A stretch of DNA of 62,330 bases from an uncultured Asticcacaulis sp. Its GTDB lineage: Bacteria > Pseudomonadota > Alphaproteobacteria > Caulobacterales > Caulobacteraceae. Made by a program: the position numbers and the translations under genes. Below the pieces are notes generated by a model. The model saw only the letters and a program-made list of their open reading frames with translations, was not told the DNA's origin and did no database searches. Below, in pieces: positions 1 to 43,846 of this stretch. Position 1 is the first letter of the stretch. The number at the start of each line of letters is the position of its first letter. The stretch spans positions 1 to 62,330 of the forward strand of contig CAMLPZ010000001.1 in the NCBI GenBank assembly GCA_946482045.1, in the 5' to 3' direction.

Positions 1-2153
1 CGCGTGGCGGCGAAACCATCCATGACCGGCATGTTGATGTCCATCAGGATCAGGTCGTAGGGCGCGCGCTGGCAGGCCTGAACCCCGTCATAGCCATTAA
101 TGGCCACGTGGATATCGTGGCCGTAGGGGGTCAGCAGGTTGACGAGCAGGTCCGTCACGGCGTCCTGGTCGTCGACGACCAGGATACGGCCGGGCCGATG
201 CGGAACCGCCACGGGCGCCGCAAACATCTGATGCATGTCTGGCAAGGGAATTTCGAACCAGAATTCGGACCCGTTGCCCGGCGTGCTGTTAACGCCGATC
301 GTTCCGCTCATAAGCTCGACCAGTTGCTTGCAGATCGACAGGCCCAAGCCTGTCCCGCCTGGCATGTCATGGGCGCTGCGATCCACCTGGCTGAAGCGCT
401 CGAACAATCGCGCCTGCCCGGCCTCCGAAATGCCAGGACCGGTATCGCGCACGCTGACATGCAGACGGTCGCCGTCCGGCGAACAGATCTGGGACAGGGT
501 AACGGTGACACCGCCGGTTTCGGTGAACTTTATGGCGTTGCCGACCAGGTTCAGCAACACCTGATGCAGGCGCCCGTCATCGATCAGGACCTGGGGCGCC
601 AGACTGTCAGCACCCTCAACCGTGAGCGTCAGGCCCTTGCCGCTGGCCTGCAACGACAGAAGGTCGACAACTCCCGTAACGACATCAGCGACCGACGCCG
701 GCGCCAGATCAAGCTCCAACTGGCCGGCTTCCAGCTTGGAATGGTCGAGAATATCGTTGATGAGATTTAGCAGCCCCTGCCCGGCGGAATGAATACGCTG
801 ACTGTGGCGGCGCAGATCCTCATTGTCGGCCAGGAGATCGCGCAGAAGAGCGGAAAAACCGATAATGCTGGTCAGCGGTGTGCGCAGTTCGTGGCTCATA
901 TTCGCCAGGAACTGCGCCTTGGCCTCTGCGGCGGCATTAGCCTCGATACTGGCCTGGGCCAGCGCGTCCTCGGTCGCCTTCTGATGCGAAATGTCGCGCA
1001 CGACGTCCTGAAAGGCGACAACTCGCTTGCCCGCCTCGTCGAGAATAGGCGAAGGATGCGCCTCCGCCCAAATAACATGACCATCCTTGTGCATGGCACG
1101 GTACCGGACGCGTAAACCTTCGCCCCAGTTTTTCCCGCGGACATGGGCAGTATAGGCGGCAAAGGTGGCTTCGCAGTCGTCGGGATGGATCACATCCCGG
1201 ACGTTGCGGCCGACCAGGTCCTCCGGCCGGTAACCCAGGATCTTTTCGACCGCCGGGGAGATATATTCAACGCGTCCGGAAAGGTCGAAGATTGTAATGA
1301 TGTCGTTCGATTCGTCCGCCAGCAGCCGATAGCGCGCCTCACTCTGCTCCAGCCGCTCCTGGTTGCGGATAAAGTTGGTCACATCGCGGCAAATACCAAA
1401 CAGGCCGGTAACGCCGCCGCCGGGTGCGCGTTCGCAGATGCCATGCACCTGAACGATGCCGACGTCATCACCGCGCAGGATACGGGCGCGATAGGTAAAA
1501 CTGCCGCCACTGGCCAGGGCGCCATCGATCGCCTGCCGGGCCATGTCGCGGTCGTCCGGATGGTACAGGTCCAGGACATGGTTGAGCGGCGGCGCTTTCA
1601 TCCTGGGGTCCTGCCCATAGATGACATAGACCTCCGGCGACCACTGGACGTCTCCGGTGGCCAGGGCGTAAGACCAGTGACCGACATTGGCGAGTTTTTC
1701 GGCCATCTGCAGGTAATCGCGGTACTGGCGCAGCTCCCGGCGAGCGTTGAGTTGCTCCTGTTCAAATAGCCGGCGTTCGCGCGCGGGAAAGAGCGCAATG
1801 TGGGTCAGGACGGTTGCGCCATGGGCCGTGGCCTGGCGTGCGCTCAAGAGGACGGCGAGGGTCTGGCCGTCGGCAAGCTTCAGGTCCAGCGAAACCTCCT
1901 GGACGCTTCCCGTCAGGGCGAGCTGCGGAGCGACACGCGCCTTGTAGATAAAGAAGGAGGCGCGGGTCAGGAGACTGCCGATATTGGCTTCCTTCAACGC
2001 CTCGGGAGCCAGGCCAACCATTTCATAAAAACTGGAATTGGCACGCACGATACGGCCGGCATCGTCGCAGACGACCAGGCCGCAGGGGCTCAGGTCGAAC
2101 AATTCGGCTGAACTGGCGGCTTCGCCAGCGCGGGCAATGGCGTTCGGGGTCAT
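1..2153 (-). CDS. Hybrid sensor histidine kinase with RsbP-like N-terminal PAS domain (3' end cut by window edge)
   Basis: Translated by eye from the reverse strand; it stays open to base 1, so the C-terminus is missing. Order seen: PAS 1 (about 18-125), PAS 2 (135-245, with YHPDDRD), PAS 3 (260-375, with IHPDD), HisKA with NMSHELRTPL (phospho-His near 420), HATPase with DTGPGIS (near 567) and GGTGLGLS (near 601), then a receiver domain with VVDDQD and LILMDINMP (phospho-Asp near 703). There is no membrane segment, so it is probably cytoplasmic. PAS 1 matches the Bacillus RsbP PAS as I remember it: a PCG start, G-I--AN, then L-DG----VL. The ATG overlaps the stop of the RsbQ-like gene by one base (TGATG), implying translational coupling. 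Inference: the hydrolase and PAS 1 form the input and the kinase is the output. The partner regulator is not visible. Confidence 0.9.
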   Translation of the reverse strand, partial: MTPNAIARAGEAASSAELFDLSPCGLVVCDDAGRIVRANSSFYEMVGLAPEALKEANIGSLLTRASFFIYKARVAPQLALTGSVQEVSLDLKLADGQTLAVLLSARQATAHGATVLTHIALFPARERRLFEQEQLNARRELRQYRDYLQMAEKLANVGHWSYALATGDVQWSPEVYVIYGQDPRMKAPPLNHVLDLYHPDDRDMARQAIDGALASGGSFTYRARILRGDDVGIVQVHGICERAPGGGVTGLFGICRDVTNFIRNQERLEQSEARYRLLADESNDIITIFDLSGRVEYISPAVEKILGYRPEDLVGRNVRDVIHPDDCEATFAAYTAHVRGKNWGEGLRVRYRAMHKDGHVIWAEAHPSPILDEAGKRVVAFQDVVRDISHQKATEDALAQASIEANAAAEAKAQFLANMSHELRTPLTSIIGFSALLRDLLADNEDLRRHSQRIHSAGQGLLNLINDILDHSKLEAGQLELDLAPASVADVVTGVVDLLSLQASGKGLTLTVEGADSLAPQVLIDDGRLHQVLLNLVGNAIKFTETGGVTVTLSQICSPDGDRLHVSVRDTGPGISEAGQARLFERFSQVDRSAHDMPGGTGLGLSICKQLVELMSGTIGVNSTPGNGSEFWFEIPLPDMHQMFAAPVAVPHRPGRILVVDDQDAVTDLLVNLLTPYGHDIHVAINGYDGVQACQRAPYDLILMDINMPVMDGFAAT

Positions 2154-2965
2154 CAGGCGGCCTCTTGTACCCCCTGCCCAAGCCAGGCCAGCATGGCCTG
2201 GCGCACCACCTCAGGATTGCTGAGATGCGGATAGTGGCCGAACGTATCGAGCAGGATACGGTCGCTGCCGCGAATCTGCACCTGCATGAATTCACCAACC
2301 TGCAGTGGCGAAATGATATCGTCACGGCACTGCATGATCAGGGTTGGCGTCGTGACCGCGCTGAGATCGGCGCGATGGTCGGACAGGAAGATGACCTTGG
2401 CGAAGTCGTGCATGATGTCCGGGTCATTGCTGACAAAGTAACTTTCCAGCTCGGCGGTCAGTTCCGGACGATCGGGATTGGCCATGACAAGGGGCGCCAG
2501 ATAGGACGACCAGCCTTGCAGCGACATTTCCAGAAAAGCCAGAAGTTCTTCGATACCCGCGCGATCGAAACCGCCCCGGTAGTCATCGATATTGAGATAG
2601 CAGGGTGATGAGCCCAGCGTCATGATGCGGCGGAACAGGTCGGGCCGCTTGCTGGCGGCCAGAAGCGTGATCATCCCGCCGACGCTGTGGCCGATCGCAT
2701 CGACGCCGGTGAGTTCACAGGTTTCCAAAATCTCGATAAAATCGTCGGCATAGGCGTACAGCGTCGCATACCGGGCGCGGCTGTAGGCGTTGAGGTCCGA
2801 CTTGCCCGAACCGACATGATCGAAAGTCACGACCTTGCGGCTCGCCTCGAAATGCCCGGCAATATGACGCCACATGGTCTGGTCACAACCATAGCCATGG
2901 AGGAATACAAGCGGCCGGTCGCCGGAACCGCTTATATTTACAGCATTTCGTTTGAGGACAGACAT
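2153..2965 (-). CDS. RsbQ-like alpha/beta hydrolase (KAI2/D14 superfamily sensor partner)
   Basis: A 270-residue alpha/beta hydrolase closely resembling Bacillus RsbQ: HGYGCDQTMW, FDHVGSGKSDL, GHSVGG, GSSPCYLN, QCRDDIISP and GHYPHLSNP are all RsbQ-type signatures. In the numbering from the upstream GTG, the predicted triad is Ser106, Asp228 and His256. RsbQ binds a small ligand and activates the PAS domain of RsbP; plant karrikin and strigolactone receptors share the fold. The ATG at 2965 is chosen because RsbQ homology begins there (MSVLKRNAV); a GTG at 3001 would add 12 residues. The gene ends in TGATG, coupling it to the PAS-kinase. It is cytoplasmic, with no signal peptide. The family call is firm; the ligand is unknown. 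Confidence 0.9.
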   Translation of the reverse strand: MSVLKRNAVNISGSGDRPLVFLHGYGCDQTMWRHIAGHFEASRKVVTFDHVGSGKSDLNAYSRARYATLYAYADDFIEILETCELTGVDAIGHSVGGMITLLAASKRPDLFRRIMTLGSSPCYLNIDDYRGGFDRAGIEELLAFLEMSLQGWSSYLAPLVMANPDRPELTAELESYFVSNDPDIMHDFAKVIFLSDHRADLSAVTTPTLIMQCRDDIISPLQVGEFMQVQIRGSDRILLDTFGHYPHLSNPEVVRQAMLAWLGQGVQEAA

Positions 2966-3047
2966 AAGCGATACACCGGGAGGCCAGGCGTATCTTGCCA
3001 CTTCAGGGTTATGATCCTCTTAAAGCCCGCGAATCTTATACCTTAAC

Positions 3048-3059
3048 GCAAACGTTTGC
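3048..3059. promoter_or_regulatory. LacI-type operator palindrome upstream of the RsbQ-kinase pair
   Basis: GCAAACGTTTGC is a perfect 12-bp palindrome with the central CG and GCAAAC arms typical of LacI/GalR-family operators. It lies about 80 bp upstream of the hydrolase start and just past the stop of the GntR gene. Its position fits repression or activation of the hydrolase-kinase operon by a carbohydrate-responsive LacI protein, none of which is encoded in this window. Confidence 0.45.
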
Positions 3060-3061
3060 CA

Positions 3062-3850
3062 TTAATAGCCTGTCCGCCGGGACAAGGCGTTACGCTTGTC
3101 CCGCAGCTTCTGACGCAGGGTTTCCATCTCGGCCGTTTCGGTCGCCACCAGCAGGTATTCGCGCACCTGCTCCAGGTGATGGCGCATGGCGGCGCGCGCG
3201 GCCGACGGGTCACGGCTGGCAAGGGCCTTGACAATCCGGCGGTGTTCTTCGATGCGCGCCTCCCGGCCGCCGCCCTGTGCACGGGTCATGATCTGCGATG
3301 CCAAAGGCGAGCGCGTGCGCAGGTTCCACAGGTGATCGATCGTGTCGATCAGGGCGCCGTTGTCGGTAACGCCTGCCAGATAGTCATGAAATTCGCGGTC
3401 GGCTTGCTCGCATTCAGCTTCATCGCCAGTAACCATGCGCTCTATCAGGGCCTCGAGTGCGGCGATATCCGCGTCCGTCACCGCCGCGGCGGCCACGGCA
3501 GCGGTTTCACCTTCGATAATAATTCGCGCCTCGATCAGTTCGAAGGCACCGACGTCGAGATCGCGCGGGGAGTTTGGCTCGCCGCTATTGCCGTTGACTT
3601 CAGGCTCGATGACATAGATGCCGGAGCCATGGCGGATTTCGACAACGCCATAGATTTCCAGAGCAATCATGGCTTCACGGACGGTTGGGCGGCTGACCTC
3701 GAAGGTTTCGGCCAATTCGCGTTCCGCCGGCAGCTTGTCGCCGACCGCATAGGTTCCGTTGCGGATGGCTTCCACGAGTTCATCGGCGACGCGACGATAG
3801 AGGCGGACAGTCTTGTTGGACGTAAGATGCATGGTATCGCAGCGGGACAT
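3062..3850 (-). CDS. GntR-family (FadR/FCD, UxuR/ExuR-like) transcriptional regulator
   Basis: The N-terminal winged helix-turn-helix carries the GntR pattern: VADELVEAIRNGTYAVGDKL, PAERELAETFEVSRPTVREA, then GVVEIRHGSGIYV. The rest is an all-helical FCD ligand domain, with LIEARIIIEGETAAVAA and the metal-site region EHRRIVKALASRDPSAARAAMRHHL. FCD GntR proteins such as UxuR and ExuR respond to hexuronates or their breakdown products. The gene lies about 100 bp downstream of the alpha-glucuronidase gene on the same strand, which supports control of glucuronate-yielding enzymes. Start taken as ATG 3850 with GGAGAA about 10 nt upstream; a TTG at 3871 and an ATG at 3832 are alternatives. Family is certain, effector is inferred. 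Confidence 0.88.
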   Translation of the reverse strand: MSRCDTMHLTSNKTVRLYRRVADELVEAIRNGTYAVGDKLPAERELAETFEVSRPTVREAMIALEIYGVVEIRHGSGIYVIEPEVNGNSGEPNSPRDLDVGAFELIEARIIIEGETAAVAAAAVTDADIAALEALIERMVTGDEAECEQADREFHDYLAGVTDNGALIDTIDHLWNLRTRSPLASQIMTRAQGGGREARIEEHRRIVKALASRDPSAARAAMRHHLEQVREYLLVATETAEMETLRQKLRDKRNALSRRTGY

Positions 3851-3951: not shown

Positions 3952-6099
3952 TCAGCCCCGGCCCGGTGCGTATGGAAATTCCAGCGACATATAGTATTCG
4001 AGCGTCTTTTCCGGTTCCGCCTCGCCCGCCGGCAGGGCCCGGCCCGACTTAGACCGGAACCACGCGATCGATGCGTCGCGCCACCACTTGGCTTCCTTTT
4101 CCTGAATCACCAGGTTCGACGACACGGCGCGGAACCGCTCCGGATCGACGTAAGCTTCCAAGCCCGACCATGTCCGCCGCATCCCGCCGACTTCCTTCAC
4201 ACCCTCGCCATAGGTGACGACGAGGGTGTCCCACAGGGTGCGGCCGTCAGGCATTGTCCAGGTCCACGGCACATGGTGAAACCAAAGAAGATCCTTCGAA
4301 GCTGTCTTTTTCGGGTCGAGCCATTGTTTGGCGGCGCCGGGCGCATATTGCGCCAGGGCATTGCTGCCGGTTCTGGTCCGGTCGAAGCCAATCCCCTTGG
4401 CGTCGGCCTTGGCGTAGTAGCACGGGTTCCACTCGGGCCGGCTAAGATCGCAAACCCAGGGTCCCGGCCCATAGTGGTGCCCTGTCGCCATCTGGTGATG
4501 CAGCCCCAAGGGCGTCATGTACTTCACCACCGTTTCGCGTGACGCCATCATCATGTCGACCACCGGCGCGACAAAGTCCGGGTCAGTGTTCCAGGTCATC
4601 CTGGCCCAGTCGGCGGCAATGTCGCGGCTTGAGGCGTCCGGGTTCCACGCCAGCCGGCCGAAACCGTACCAGTCGGCCTGGTTGAAGTCCGATCCCGTCC
4701 AGTCGCGATCGTCGCCAATATTGGACACGCCCGCCATGCCGGTAAGGGGCGTGGCCCGCAGTACATCGGCGACGGTCATGCGCTGACTTTTGCCCCTGCC
4801 CCGATGGGTATCGGCATCCAGCACCTCTTCGTAGAGCGCCGTGGAATAGACCAGGTGCGTCGCCTGGCCCAGGTATTCCTTGGTCAGTTGCACTTCCAGC
4901 ATCTGGTTGGTCTTCGGCATGGCGCCGAACAAGGGATGAAAGGGCTCGCGCGGCTGGAAGTCGATGGCGCCGTTCTTGATCTGCAGCAGGACGTTGGGCG
5001 CGAACGTGCCGTCCAGCGGCTGAAGCTCGGTATAGGCCTGCTTGGCGCGGTCATCGGCGTCATGCTCGGAATAGATGAAGGCGCGCCACATGACGATACC
5101 ACCATGCGGCTTCAACGCTTCGGCCAGCATGTTGGCGCCCTCGGCGTGGCTGCGCTTGTAGTCGCCCGGCCCAGGCTGGCCTTCGGAATTAGCCTTCACG
5201 AGGAAGCCTCCGAAGTCCGGAATGGCGGCGTAGATTTCGTCGGCCTTGGTCTTCCACCACGCCTTGACGCAAGAGTCGAGCGGATCTGCGGTTGGGCAGC
5301 CTTTCAATTCTATTGGCGCTGAAAACCGCGCCGACAGGTAGACTTTCATGCCGTACGGCCTCAACACATCGGCAATGGCCGCAGTCCTGGCAAGATAGGG
5401 CGCAGTAAGGCTGATCGCTTTGGAATTGACGTTGTTGAGTACCGCGCCATTGATGCCGACCGAGGCATTGGCACGGGCATAGTCGGTATAGCGCGGATCG
5501 ACCAGGTCGGGCAGACGCCACCAATCCCAGATCGAGTCCCCAGCGTAGCCGCGCTCGACATGGCCGTCGAGATTGTCCCAGTGGTTGAGCACCCGTACCT
5601 GAAGCTTCGGCGCATCCGTGATGTCGAGCCTGGCCACATCCTGGCGCGTCTGGATCAGGCTCAAATAGCGAAAGGCGCCGTAGAGGACGCCAGCATCGCT
5701 ATTGGCGGCAATGACCGTGACGTTGTGACCGTCGATCGTCGCCGAACGGATCAGGTAGCCTTCCTTGCCCAGTTTCGCCAGCGGCAAATTCAGGTTGCGG
5801 ACAATCGCGGAACCGGCCGGCGTGCCCAGCACGATGGCGCCATCCGTGGCCGCGCCGCCTACAGGTACATCCCCGCCCAGAAGACCTTTCAATCCACGCT
5901 GCAGTTCGACCTCGGCGGCATCGAGCGTCGCCCCGTCCCCGCCGACTATCGCCTTCGCCAGCGGCAGGTAGCGTGCCTGCGCCTCGGCCTCGACCGGCCG
6001 ATACCGCAACCAAAGGTCATAGCCGTCCTCGGCAAGGGCGGGCACTCCAGATACCAGCGACATGACCAGGGATAACCCGGCAAGGGGACCAAACCGCAT
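3952..6099 (-). CDS. aguA: GH67 alpha-glucuronidase
   Basis: About 715 residues from ATG 6099, with a signal peptide (MRFGPLAGLSL to PALAED); an in-frame ATG at 6150 would add 17 residues ahead of it. Family hallmarks seen: GYDLWLRY near the N-terminus, LNHWDNLDGHVERGYAG, and WWRLPDLVDPRY. The predicted general acid is Glu306 in KANSEGQPGPGDY, and the predicted base pair is Asp380 in NGAIDFQP and Glu408 in TKEYLGQ. GH67 enzymes remove 4-O-methyl-glucuronic acid from the non-reducing end of xylo-oligosaccharides; the signal peptide points to the periplasm. The GntR/FCD regulator follows on the same strand, and a UxuR-like operator lies upstream. Length and motifs are typical of the family; confidence is high. 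Confidence 0.95.
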   Translation of the reverse strand: MRFGPLAGLSLVMSLVSGVPALAEDGYDLWLRYRPVEAEAQARYLPLAKAIVGGDGATLDAAEVELQRGLKGLLGGDVPVGGAATDGAIVLGTPAGSAIVRNLNLPLAKLGKEGYLIRSATIDGHNVTVIAANSDAGVLYGAFRYLSLIQTRQDVARLDITDAPKLQVRVLNHWDNLDGHVERGYAGDSIWDWWRLPDLVDPRYTDYARANASVGINGAVLNNVNSKAISLTAPYLARTAAIADVLRPYGMKVYLSARFSAPIELKGCPTADPLDSCVKAWWKTKADEIYAAIPDFGGFLVKANSEGQPGPGDYKRSHAEGANMLAEALKPHGGIVMWRAFIYSEHDADDRAKQAYTELQPLDGTFAPNVLLQIKNGAIDFQPREPFHPLFGAMPKTNQMLEVQLTKEYLGQATHLVYSTALYEEVLDADTHRGRGKSQRMTVADVLRATPLTGMAGVSNIGDDRDWTGSDFNQADWYGFGRLAWNPDASSRDIAADWARMTWNTDPDFVAPVVDMMMASRETVVKYMTPLGLHHQMATGHHYGPGPWVCDLSRPEWNPCYYAKADAKGIGFDRTRTGSNALAQYAPGAAKQWLDPKKTASKDLLWFHHVPWTWTMPDGRTLWDTLVVTYGEGVKEVGGMRRTWSGLEAYVDPERFRAVSSNLVIQEKEAKWWRDASIAWFRSKSGRALPAGEAEPEKTLEYYMSLEFPYAPGRG

Positions 6100-6152
6100 G
6101 AAAAGCCTTCCAGGGTGTTTTGCTTCCGGCGCGTCAGACCATAACGGCAAAA

Positions 6153-43008: not shown

Positions 43009-43779
43009 TCAGGCCGCGTTCCCCAGCACCAGTTCCGCGACATCCAGCAGGTCGTGCGCTGCGAAAGGCTTCTTGATCTGAGCATCAACCCCGAACTTAC
43101 GCGTTGCGTTGAGTGCATCCTGGTCCGTGACCTTGTCCTCAAGACCACCCGACATCGAAATCAGACGAACCCGGGGCCAGGTCGCCTTGATCATCCGCAT
43201 ACCCTTGAGCCCGCCCATGCCAGGCATGAAGACGTCGCACAATACCAGGTCGACGTGCGCGATATCGACGTCGGCAAAGGCCTCCTCCATCGATCCAGCC
43301 TGCGACACGCGGTATCCTCCGCTTTCCAGCGCCTTGGCGGCAATCATGCGCACCGTCCGGCTGTCATCTATGACCAAGACGTGTTTACGCACGCTGCCCG
43401 CCGCGGCATCCTGAGAAAGGGCATCGAGTACATTGGCCAGCAAGGCGTCGGTAAAGGGCTTACGCAGCACGTGTTCAGCACCCGTCTTGCGGGCATTACG
43501 CAGGGTATCGTCAATGGCTTCGTGGCGACTGCCCGCCGTCATCAGCACGATGGGCGCATTGGGCGCCAGCTTGCGGAAACGGTCGATGTGCAGAAGGGTA
43601 TTGTGCTGGTTGACGAAGACGTCGAGAAAAAGCGCGTGGACCTGCATCTGCGTCAGCGCCTCGGACGCTTCGCGAACTTCCGAGAAGTGCTGCGTTGTCC
43701 AGCCACGGGCTTCGATCATTCGCGAGATAATCAAGGCCTGGGTCGTACTGTCTTCCAGAATGAGAGCTGTCTTTTCCAT
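43009..43779 (-). CDS. Dual receiver-domain response regulator without output domain
   Basis: 256 residues made of two receiver domains. The first (5-120) has LILEDS, FLDVFVN (Asp53), MTAG and the KPF lysine; the second (133-250) has VIDDSRTV, LCDVFMPG (Asp182), MSGG and KKPF. No DNA-binding or enzyme domain is present. Such tandem receivers act as phosphate sinks or scaffolds in phosphorelays. The two hybrid kinases in this window are candidate partners, though neither is adjacent. A LacI-like palindrome lies 56 bp upstream. Confidence 0.88.
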   Translation of the reverse strand: MEKTALILEDSTTQALIISRMIEARGWTTQHFSEVREASEALTQMQVHALFLDVFVNQHNTLLHIDRFRKLAPNAPIVLMTAGSRHEAIDDTLRNARKTGAEHVLRKPFTDALLANVLDALSQDAAAGSVRKHVLVIDDSRTVRMIAAKALESGGYRVSQAGSMEEAFADVDIAHVDLVLCDVFMPGMGGLKGMRMIKATWPRVRLISMSGGLEDKVTDQDALNATRKFGVDAQIKKPFAAHDLLDVAELVLGNAA

Positions 43780-43834
43780 GGGTGTTTCCGGCTACGGCGC
43801 AATGTTGTCGTCCAGCCATGAAAAGGTCGTTAAT

Positions 43835-43846
43835 GCAAACGCTTGC
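43835..43846. promoter_or_regulatory. LacI-like near-palindrome upstream of the dual receiver gene
   Basis: GCAAACGCTTGC differs by one arm position from the perfect site at 3048-3059 (GCAAACGTTTGC). It lies 56 bp before the dual receiver start at 43779. The match may be chance; its value is the resemblance to the other site. Confidence 0.28.

Follow-up and report, generated by a model that had tools for sequence, protein, structure and literature searches.

The window, a stretch of 62,330 nucleotides from an Asticcacaulis-like alphaproteobacterium, begins with a gene for a histidine kinase carrying three PAS domains that is joined to a gene for an RsbQ-type hydrolase, and the question is whether the hydrolase serves as the sensory input of the kinase. 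Pairs of this kind have precedent. Nadezhdin, Brody and Price (2011; PMC3183031) list 45 pairs of RsbQ with an RsbP-type PAS domain (RsbP-PAS), the outputs of which are PPM phosphatases, histidine kinases (three of them hybrid) or diguanylate cyclases; the RsbP-PAS is always the most N-terminal domain and five of the proteins have extra PAS domains. The same paper reported outputs through histidine kinases, hybrid ones included, from Gram-negative bacteria as early as 2011; it contains two-hybrid and pull-down results on the B. subtilis RsbQ-RsbP pair and describes the RsbQ-PAS ligand and signalling cue as unknown at that date. A 2025 paper restates that the module is also joined to kinase and cyclase outputs and presents a predicted model of RsbP with RsbQ (PMC12143880). 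We found no experimental study of a kinase-type RsbQ-PAS pair in the open-access literature. The reading that we put forward, and consider likely, is that the locus encodes an RsbQ-PAS sensing module having a hybrid-kinase output.

Table 1. Features at the start of the window. Residue numbers are those of the encoded proteins; the hydrolase alignment of 29 sequences includes the hydrolase of the window itself.
Feature	Position	Strand	Basis or remark
Hybrid histidine kinase	3..2153	-	717 aa visible; 3' end beyond window start
Receiver domain, partial, residues 657-716, probable phosphoacceptor Asp705	3..185	-	Pfam
HATPase, residues 525-638	240..581	-	Pfam
HisKA (dimerisation and phosphoacceptor), residues 411-477, His421 in HELRTP	723..923	-	Pfam
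PAS3, residues 267-392	978..1355	-	
PAS2, residues 146-262	1368..1718	-	
PAS1, RsbP-PAS type, residues 15-138	1740..2111	-	Profile E 4.3e-40 (window among the profile's own rows); tree; model pLDDT 85
F-alpha helix of PAS1, residues 64-81	1911..1964	-	RsbQ-contact helix in Bacillus RsbP
RsbQ-type alpha/beta hydrolase	2153..2965	-	270 aa from ATG
Catalytic His244 codon	2234..2236	-	Invariant in 29/29 aligned sequences
Catalytic Asp216 codon	2318..2320	-	Invariant in 29/29 aligned sequences
Catalytic Ser94 codon (GHSVGG)	2684..2686	-	Sequence; invariant in 29/29 aligned sequences
Alternative hydrolase start, in-frame GTG	3001	-	Would add 12 aa
Palindrome-containing site ACGCAAACGTTTGC, possible operator	3046..3059	.	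Upstream of hydrolase gene
GntR/FCD regulator	3062..3832	-	Upstream of hydrolase, same strand; context only
GH67 alpha-glucuronidase	3952..6150	-	Upstream, same strand; context only

The top PDB sequence match of the hydrolase was B. subtilis RsbQ (1wom, E 1.1e-73). Pfam assigned the alpha/beta hydrolase fold, and the predicted model (pLDDT 95.5) gave a TM of 0.95 and 44% identity to 1wom, which fold comparison ranked ahead of plant KAI2 and D14. Compared with their A. solisilvae counterparts both the hydrolase and kinase genes are under purifying selection, with a dN/dS of 0.11 for the hydrolase. A chance origin of the hydrolase identity is excluded because of the 1wom match, the TM score, the invariant Ser94-Asp216-His244 triad and this dN/dS value, and the initial annotation of a complete RsbQ-type hydrolase with an intact triad was thereby confirmed. 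The annotation also drew a link to the plant karrikin and strigolactone receptors. The kinship is there but distant, as in the PDB search RsbQ scored 251 bits versus 183 for the best plant protein, and the closest relatives are not the KAI2/D14 receptors.

The stop codon of the hydrolase gene and the ATG of the kinase gene share one base (TGATG), and open reading frames and Pfam bore out both this overlap and the three-PAS architecture of the kinase that had been described at the outset. No kinase stop occurs before the window edge and the gene is therefore cut off. The designation hybrid, also made at the outset, fits the receiver domain, which is only partly visible in the window and is complete in the related proteins P0001 and P0005 (798 aa each) and in the homologous A. 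solisilvae kinase of locus L001 (798 residues). PAS1 had no sequence match in the PDB, and fold comparison of its predicted model recovered the PAS fold. When the P0001 PAS1 was searched against a protein database (a word search with a length window) at least four proteins were found, the query included.

In a PAS1 tree the window domain and 48 other rows fell on one side of a branch having support of 98/91. These rows were 40 RsbQ-linked PAS1 domains, five PAS domains of PPM phosphatases the gene context of which was not seen and three PAS1 domains from kinases lacking an adjacent RsbQ. Hence, PAS1 did not cluster away from the RsbP-type PAS domains, a result that holds within limits because the outgroup on the other side of the branch was small (seven PAS2-PAS4 domains from three PAS1-bearing kinases), bootstrap values were still unsettled and the rows lacked B. 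subtilis RsbP. The latter protein was not recognised among the matches listed (120 of 371). Four loci were omitted from both the tree and the residue table described below: L082, which lacks a PAS partner, L029, which diverges too far, L070, whose partner is the same in sequence as that of L069, and L031, for which the ORF call gave a wrong start. Assignment of PAS1 to the RsbQ-linked PAS family is supported by this sequence comparison.

The pairing of hydrolase and PAS1 was then followed across 54 other RsbQ loci, collected in two batches of 32 and 22 and containing the near-copies L069/L070, L004/L010 and L011/L028. In 42 of the 54 a profile search placed a strong PAS1-type domain immediately after RsbQ on the same strand, a count that retains L010, L015 and L031, which have a stop in the hydrolase frame. 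The profile is not independent of these loci because its 39 pairs include most of the partners. A single P0001 PAS1 query, run against 45 candidate downstream ORFs with those of the window and L001 among them, matched 43, all but L029 and L082. Among the remaining loci L029 has a weak PAS1, L075 is at a contig end and ten have none, no PAS1-type domain being found in the fetched flanks of L007, L013, L017, L020, L023, L024, L027, L030, L032 and L082. Within these limits the linkage of hydrolase and kinase genes is conserved. The 42 partners were 16 hybrid kinases, 15 other HisKA/HATPase-type kinases, five HWE kinases, two PPM phosphatases, two diguanylate cyclases and two proteins without a class, L008 being cut by its contig and L018 having no Pfam match at 1e-6. 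Classes were assigned by Pfam for L001, L009, L012, L015, L016, L018, L021, L022, L026, L063, L068, L071 and L079 and by single-sequence phmmer plus motifs for all others.

Several of these loci deserve mention in their own right. RsbQ is followed by an HWE PAS kinase in L077 (2764-4208), L079 (3531-4999), L080 (2689-3777), L081 (3740-5214) and L026 (6798-8144), the HWE type being assigned by Pfam for L079 and L026 and by the H-box motif for L077, L080 and L081; a receiver gene comes next in L077 (Pfam) and, judged by the visible start, in L079 and L081. In the Pontibacter/Rufibacter loci L007 (6840-7304) and L013 (6828-7277) RsbQ is followed by a small protein, alike at the visible starts in the two loci and having no Pfam match at 1e-5. 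Five Duganella RsbQ homologues (L020, L023, L024, L027 and L032) are among those lacking a PAS1-type domain in the fetched flanks. Another RsbQ gene of A. solisilvae, in L072 (3959-5883), adjoins a PAS1 kinase of 376 aa.

A census of 249 genomes of the host's family, drawn from a larger group and scored for only the best candidates in each genome (RsbQ at E 1e-50; PAS1 profile at E 1e-12, with 10 of the 30 profile rows coming from these genomes), gave the same association. RsbQ was present in 20 genomes (23 genes) and the PAS1 type in 24 (28 domains); all 20 RsbQ genomes had the PAS1 type versus 4 of the 229 others (Fisher p 7e-26, kinship ignored). Twenty-one RsbQ genes adjoin 21 PAS1 domains. 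The other two RsbQ genes have no PAS1 neighbour, namely G086:C4 and that of G060, where the pair is split by a contig end and PAS1 stops 48 bases short of the end of C47. Besides G060, PAS1 lacks an adjacent RsbQ in G086:C3, G130, G053:C51, G047 (in a GGDEF protein), G120 and G146.

Hydrolase and PAS1 also diverge together. Their distances were correlated over 39 pairs (r 0.68), a value reached in none of 2000 permutations, in a set that contains near-copies and with kinship ignored; L010 and L015 (stop in the hydrolase frame), L082, L029, L070 and L031 were left out. When only the 22 HisKA pairs were taken, hydrolase and PAS1 had a partial correlation of 0.56 given the kinase core, and hydrolase and kinase core one of -0.03 given PAS1, a contrast that may be inflated by the noisier kinase-core alignment. 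As hydrolase divergence tracks PAS1 and not the kinase core, the two sequences behave as a unit.

The contact helix of the window PAS1 departs from the published signature, and the initial statement that PAS1 matches the RsbP PAS domain held for the family grouping but not for the whole signature. With RsbP numbering set by motif spacing from PMC3183031 rather than by RsbP alignment, and the published consensus being a 75% one, three of the nine class residues (C10, L48 and E72) remain. Val stands at position 13 and Tyr at position 56, and in place of Q53, F55, Y59 and P86 the window has Phe, Ile, Arg and Ala. The window residues corresponding to F55 and Y59 are I69 and R73; according to the same paper changes at F55 and Y59 disturbed RsbQ binding (PMC3183031). 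The DIT motif is absent from the end of the window PAS1, and its pattern was seen in only L006 and L008 among the 47 rows of the residue table. An aromatic residue at 55 plus His or Tyr at 59 was present in 24 of these rows and neither in ten, the window included.

Replacement of F55 and Y59 could mean that the module has become decoupled, such that PAS1 has become independent of RsbQ, while the hydrolase is kept for another role or is being lost. Related kinases without an adjacent hydrolase gene lend this some weight. G130, G086 and G053 encode three-PAS hybrid kinases of the family, 53% identical to the A. solisilvae kinase, that lack an adjacent RsbQ and have Ile and Lys or Arg at positions 55 and 59. 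RsbQ is found elsewhere in G086 and G053; no RsbQ was found in a genome search of G130 at E 1e-15, and the hydrolase profile gave only weak partial matches in G130, G120, G146 and G047. However, we judge decoupling in the window unlikely. The low dN/dS of its hydrolase argues against it, as does the altered helix (residues 64-81), which is the same in A. solisilvae (dN 0, dS 1.02). P0005 also has this helix unchanged; P0004 differs at one residue and P0006 at three. Moreover, the nine further rows having neither signature residue retain an adjacent hydrolase gene, and in the more distant hydrolase-free kinases of L099 and L100 E72 is gone as well, a residue still present in the window.

The kinases without an adjacent RsbQ nevertheless indicate that PAS1 can persist without it. 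In L099 (G120) and L100 (G146) an OmpR-type regulator gene is followed by a three-PAS kinase gene lacking both a receiver domain and a neighbouring hydrolase, whereas in L064 the orthologous regulator (65% identical) is followed by RsbQ and then a hybrid kinase. It seems from such comparisons that three-PAS kinases gain and lose the hydrolase gene upstream of them. We tentatively raise the idea, which we think rather doubtful, that RsbQ in Asticcacaulis is a detachable input and that the changed helix (Ile 55, Arg 59), maintained by strong selection, marks a second docking mode; the similar residues in kinases without adjacent RsbQ argue against the docking part. The occurrence within one genus of the same kinase type with and without the hydrolase, together with the changed helix, provides a natural comparison for the contribution of the hydrolase.

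The genes upstream could point to another role for the hydrolase. In A. solisilvae (L001) the gene order is GH67, GntR, hydrolase, kinase and a stand-alone receiver protein, the same as in the window through the kinase, with identities of 91% (GH67), 95% (GntR) and 87% (hydrolase), and in both these four genes are co-directional. The hydrolase might thus be a metabolic esterase of a plant-polysaccharide locus (GH67, GntR, pectinesterase, GH43), the overlap with the kinase gene reflecting only a shared transcript; GDSL, pectinesterase, GH43 and TonB-receptor genes do occur further along the window. We consider this very improbable, as the other 53 loci (many with short flanks) have no GH67 and one weak GntR, a PAS partner adjoins RsbQ in most loci and hydrolase divergence tracks PAS1. 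Over the 55 RsbQ loci and their fetched flanks, many of them short, GH67 was adjacent in only the window and L001, and GntR was present in these two and weakly in L026 (33% identity, other strand); both were rejected as parts of the module. As GH67 adjacency is confined to two loci, a plant-wall ligand for the module is only a guess. The region 3952-34656 of the window is a large plant-polysaccharide locus encoding GH67, TonB receptors, an FGGY kinase, a GDSL esterase, a pectinesterase and GH43.

In L001, L062, L095 and L096, but not in L097, the gene after that of the three-PAS kinase encodes a stand-alone receiver, and the stand-alone receiver protein of A. solisilvae is the probable output of its kinase. 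A receiver protein encoded at 43009-43779 of the window was considered as the kinase output on account of a palindrome-like site beside it, described below, and dropped, having 24-30% identity to kinase-adjacent receivers. The 12-base palindrome core within ACGCAAACGTTTGC is found at the same place in A. solisilvae with one mismatch. Similar palindrome-like sites, GCAAACGTTTGC and GCAAACGCTTGC, are at 3046-3059 and 43833-43846 of the window, a search having given four matches (two sites, both strands) versus 0.5 expected; the second site is situated between two divergent regulator genes and beside the 43009-43779 receiver gene. A connection to the general stress response of alphaproteobacteria was not supported. 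NepR was present in six of ten genomes searched, where it sat either on a different contig from RsbQ or megabases away, and was not found in the other four, the three-PAS-kinase genomes G001, G150, G053 and G086.

The sensing-module reading can be stated as a sequence of steps. The hydrolase would bind, and probably slowly hydrolyse, a small molecule and, by analogy with RsbQ-RsbP, would dock on PAS1 of the kinase dimer. Ligand occupancy or hydrolysis would alter PAS1, a change that helical linkers could relay via PAS2 and PAS3 to HisKA to set autophosphorylation of His421. Phosphate would be taken up by Asp705 in the kinase's own receiver domain and would reach, directly or via an HPt protein encoded elsewhere, a stand-alone receiver such as that encoded next in A. 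solisilvae. The scheme builds on what was observed: the domains, the catalytic residues, the conserved gene pairing, the joint divergence of the hydrolase and PAS1 sequences and, in relatives, a receiver gene after the kinase. That a hydrolase-PAS module serves as input to the kinase, as the initial annotation proposed, is still the best reading of the locus, although its placement in two-component signalling is not new given PMC3183031.

The locus shares with B. subtilis RsbQ-RsbP the hydrolase fold, the triad, the gene order and the PAS1 family, but the output there is a PPM phosphatase whereas here it is a kinase plus receiver domain, and no SigB link is shown here. The plant KAI2 and D14 proteins are of the same hydrolase kin and fold, with identities of 36% or less among the best 50 matches listed versus 44% for RsbQ. 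The plant partners of KAI2 and D14 differ from the PAS partners of RsbQ. LuxP, a binding protein that acts on periplasmic PAS domains, is neither a hydrolase nor a homologue. LuxPQ, where a separate ligand-binding protein acts on the PAS of a hybrid kinase, is compared with the module in PMC3183031. The closest parallel is the module of that paper: an RsbQ homologue encoded directly upstream, an RsbP-type PAS in the most N-terminal position, a hybrid kinase and extra PAS domains are common to both, and the output here (HisKA, HATPase and part of a receiver domain) falls within the PPM, histidine kinase or GGDEF classes that define it. The differences from that account are that F55, Y59 and P86 are replaced and that the genus has family kinases without an adjacent hydrolase. 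Hence, the locus is a new example of the RsbQ-PAS sensor module, a kind in print since 2011, and what is worth keeping from it is the existence of such kinases without the hydrolase and a contact helix that is altered yet conserved.
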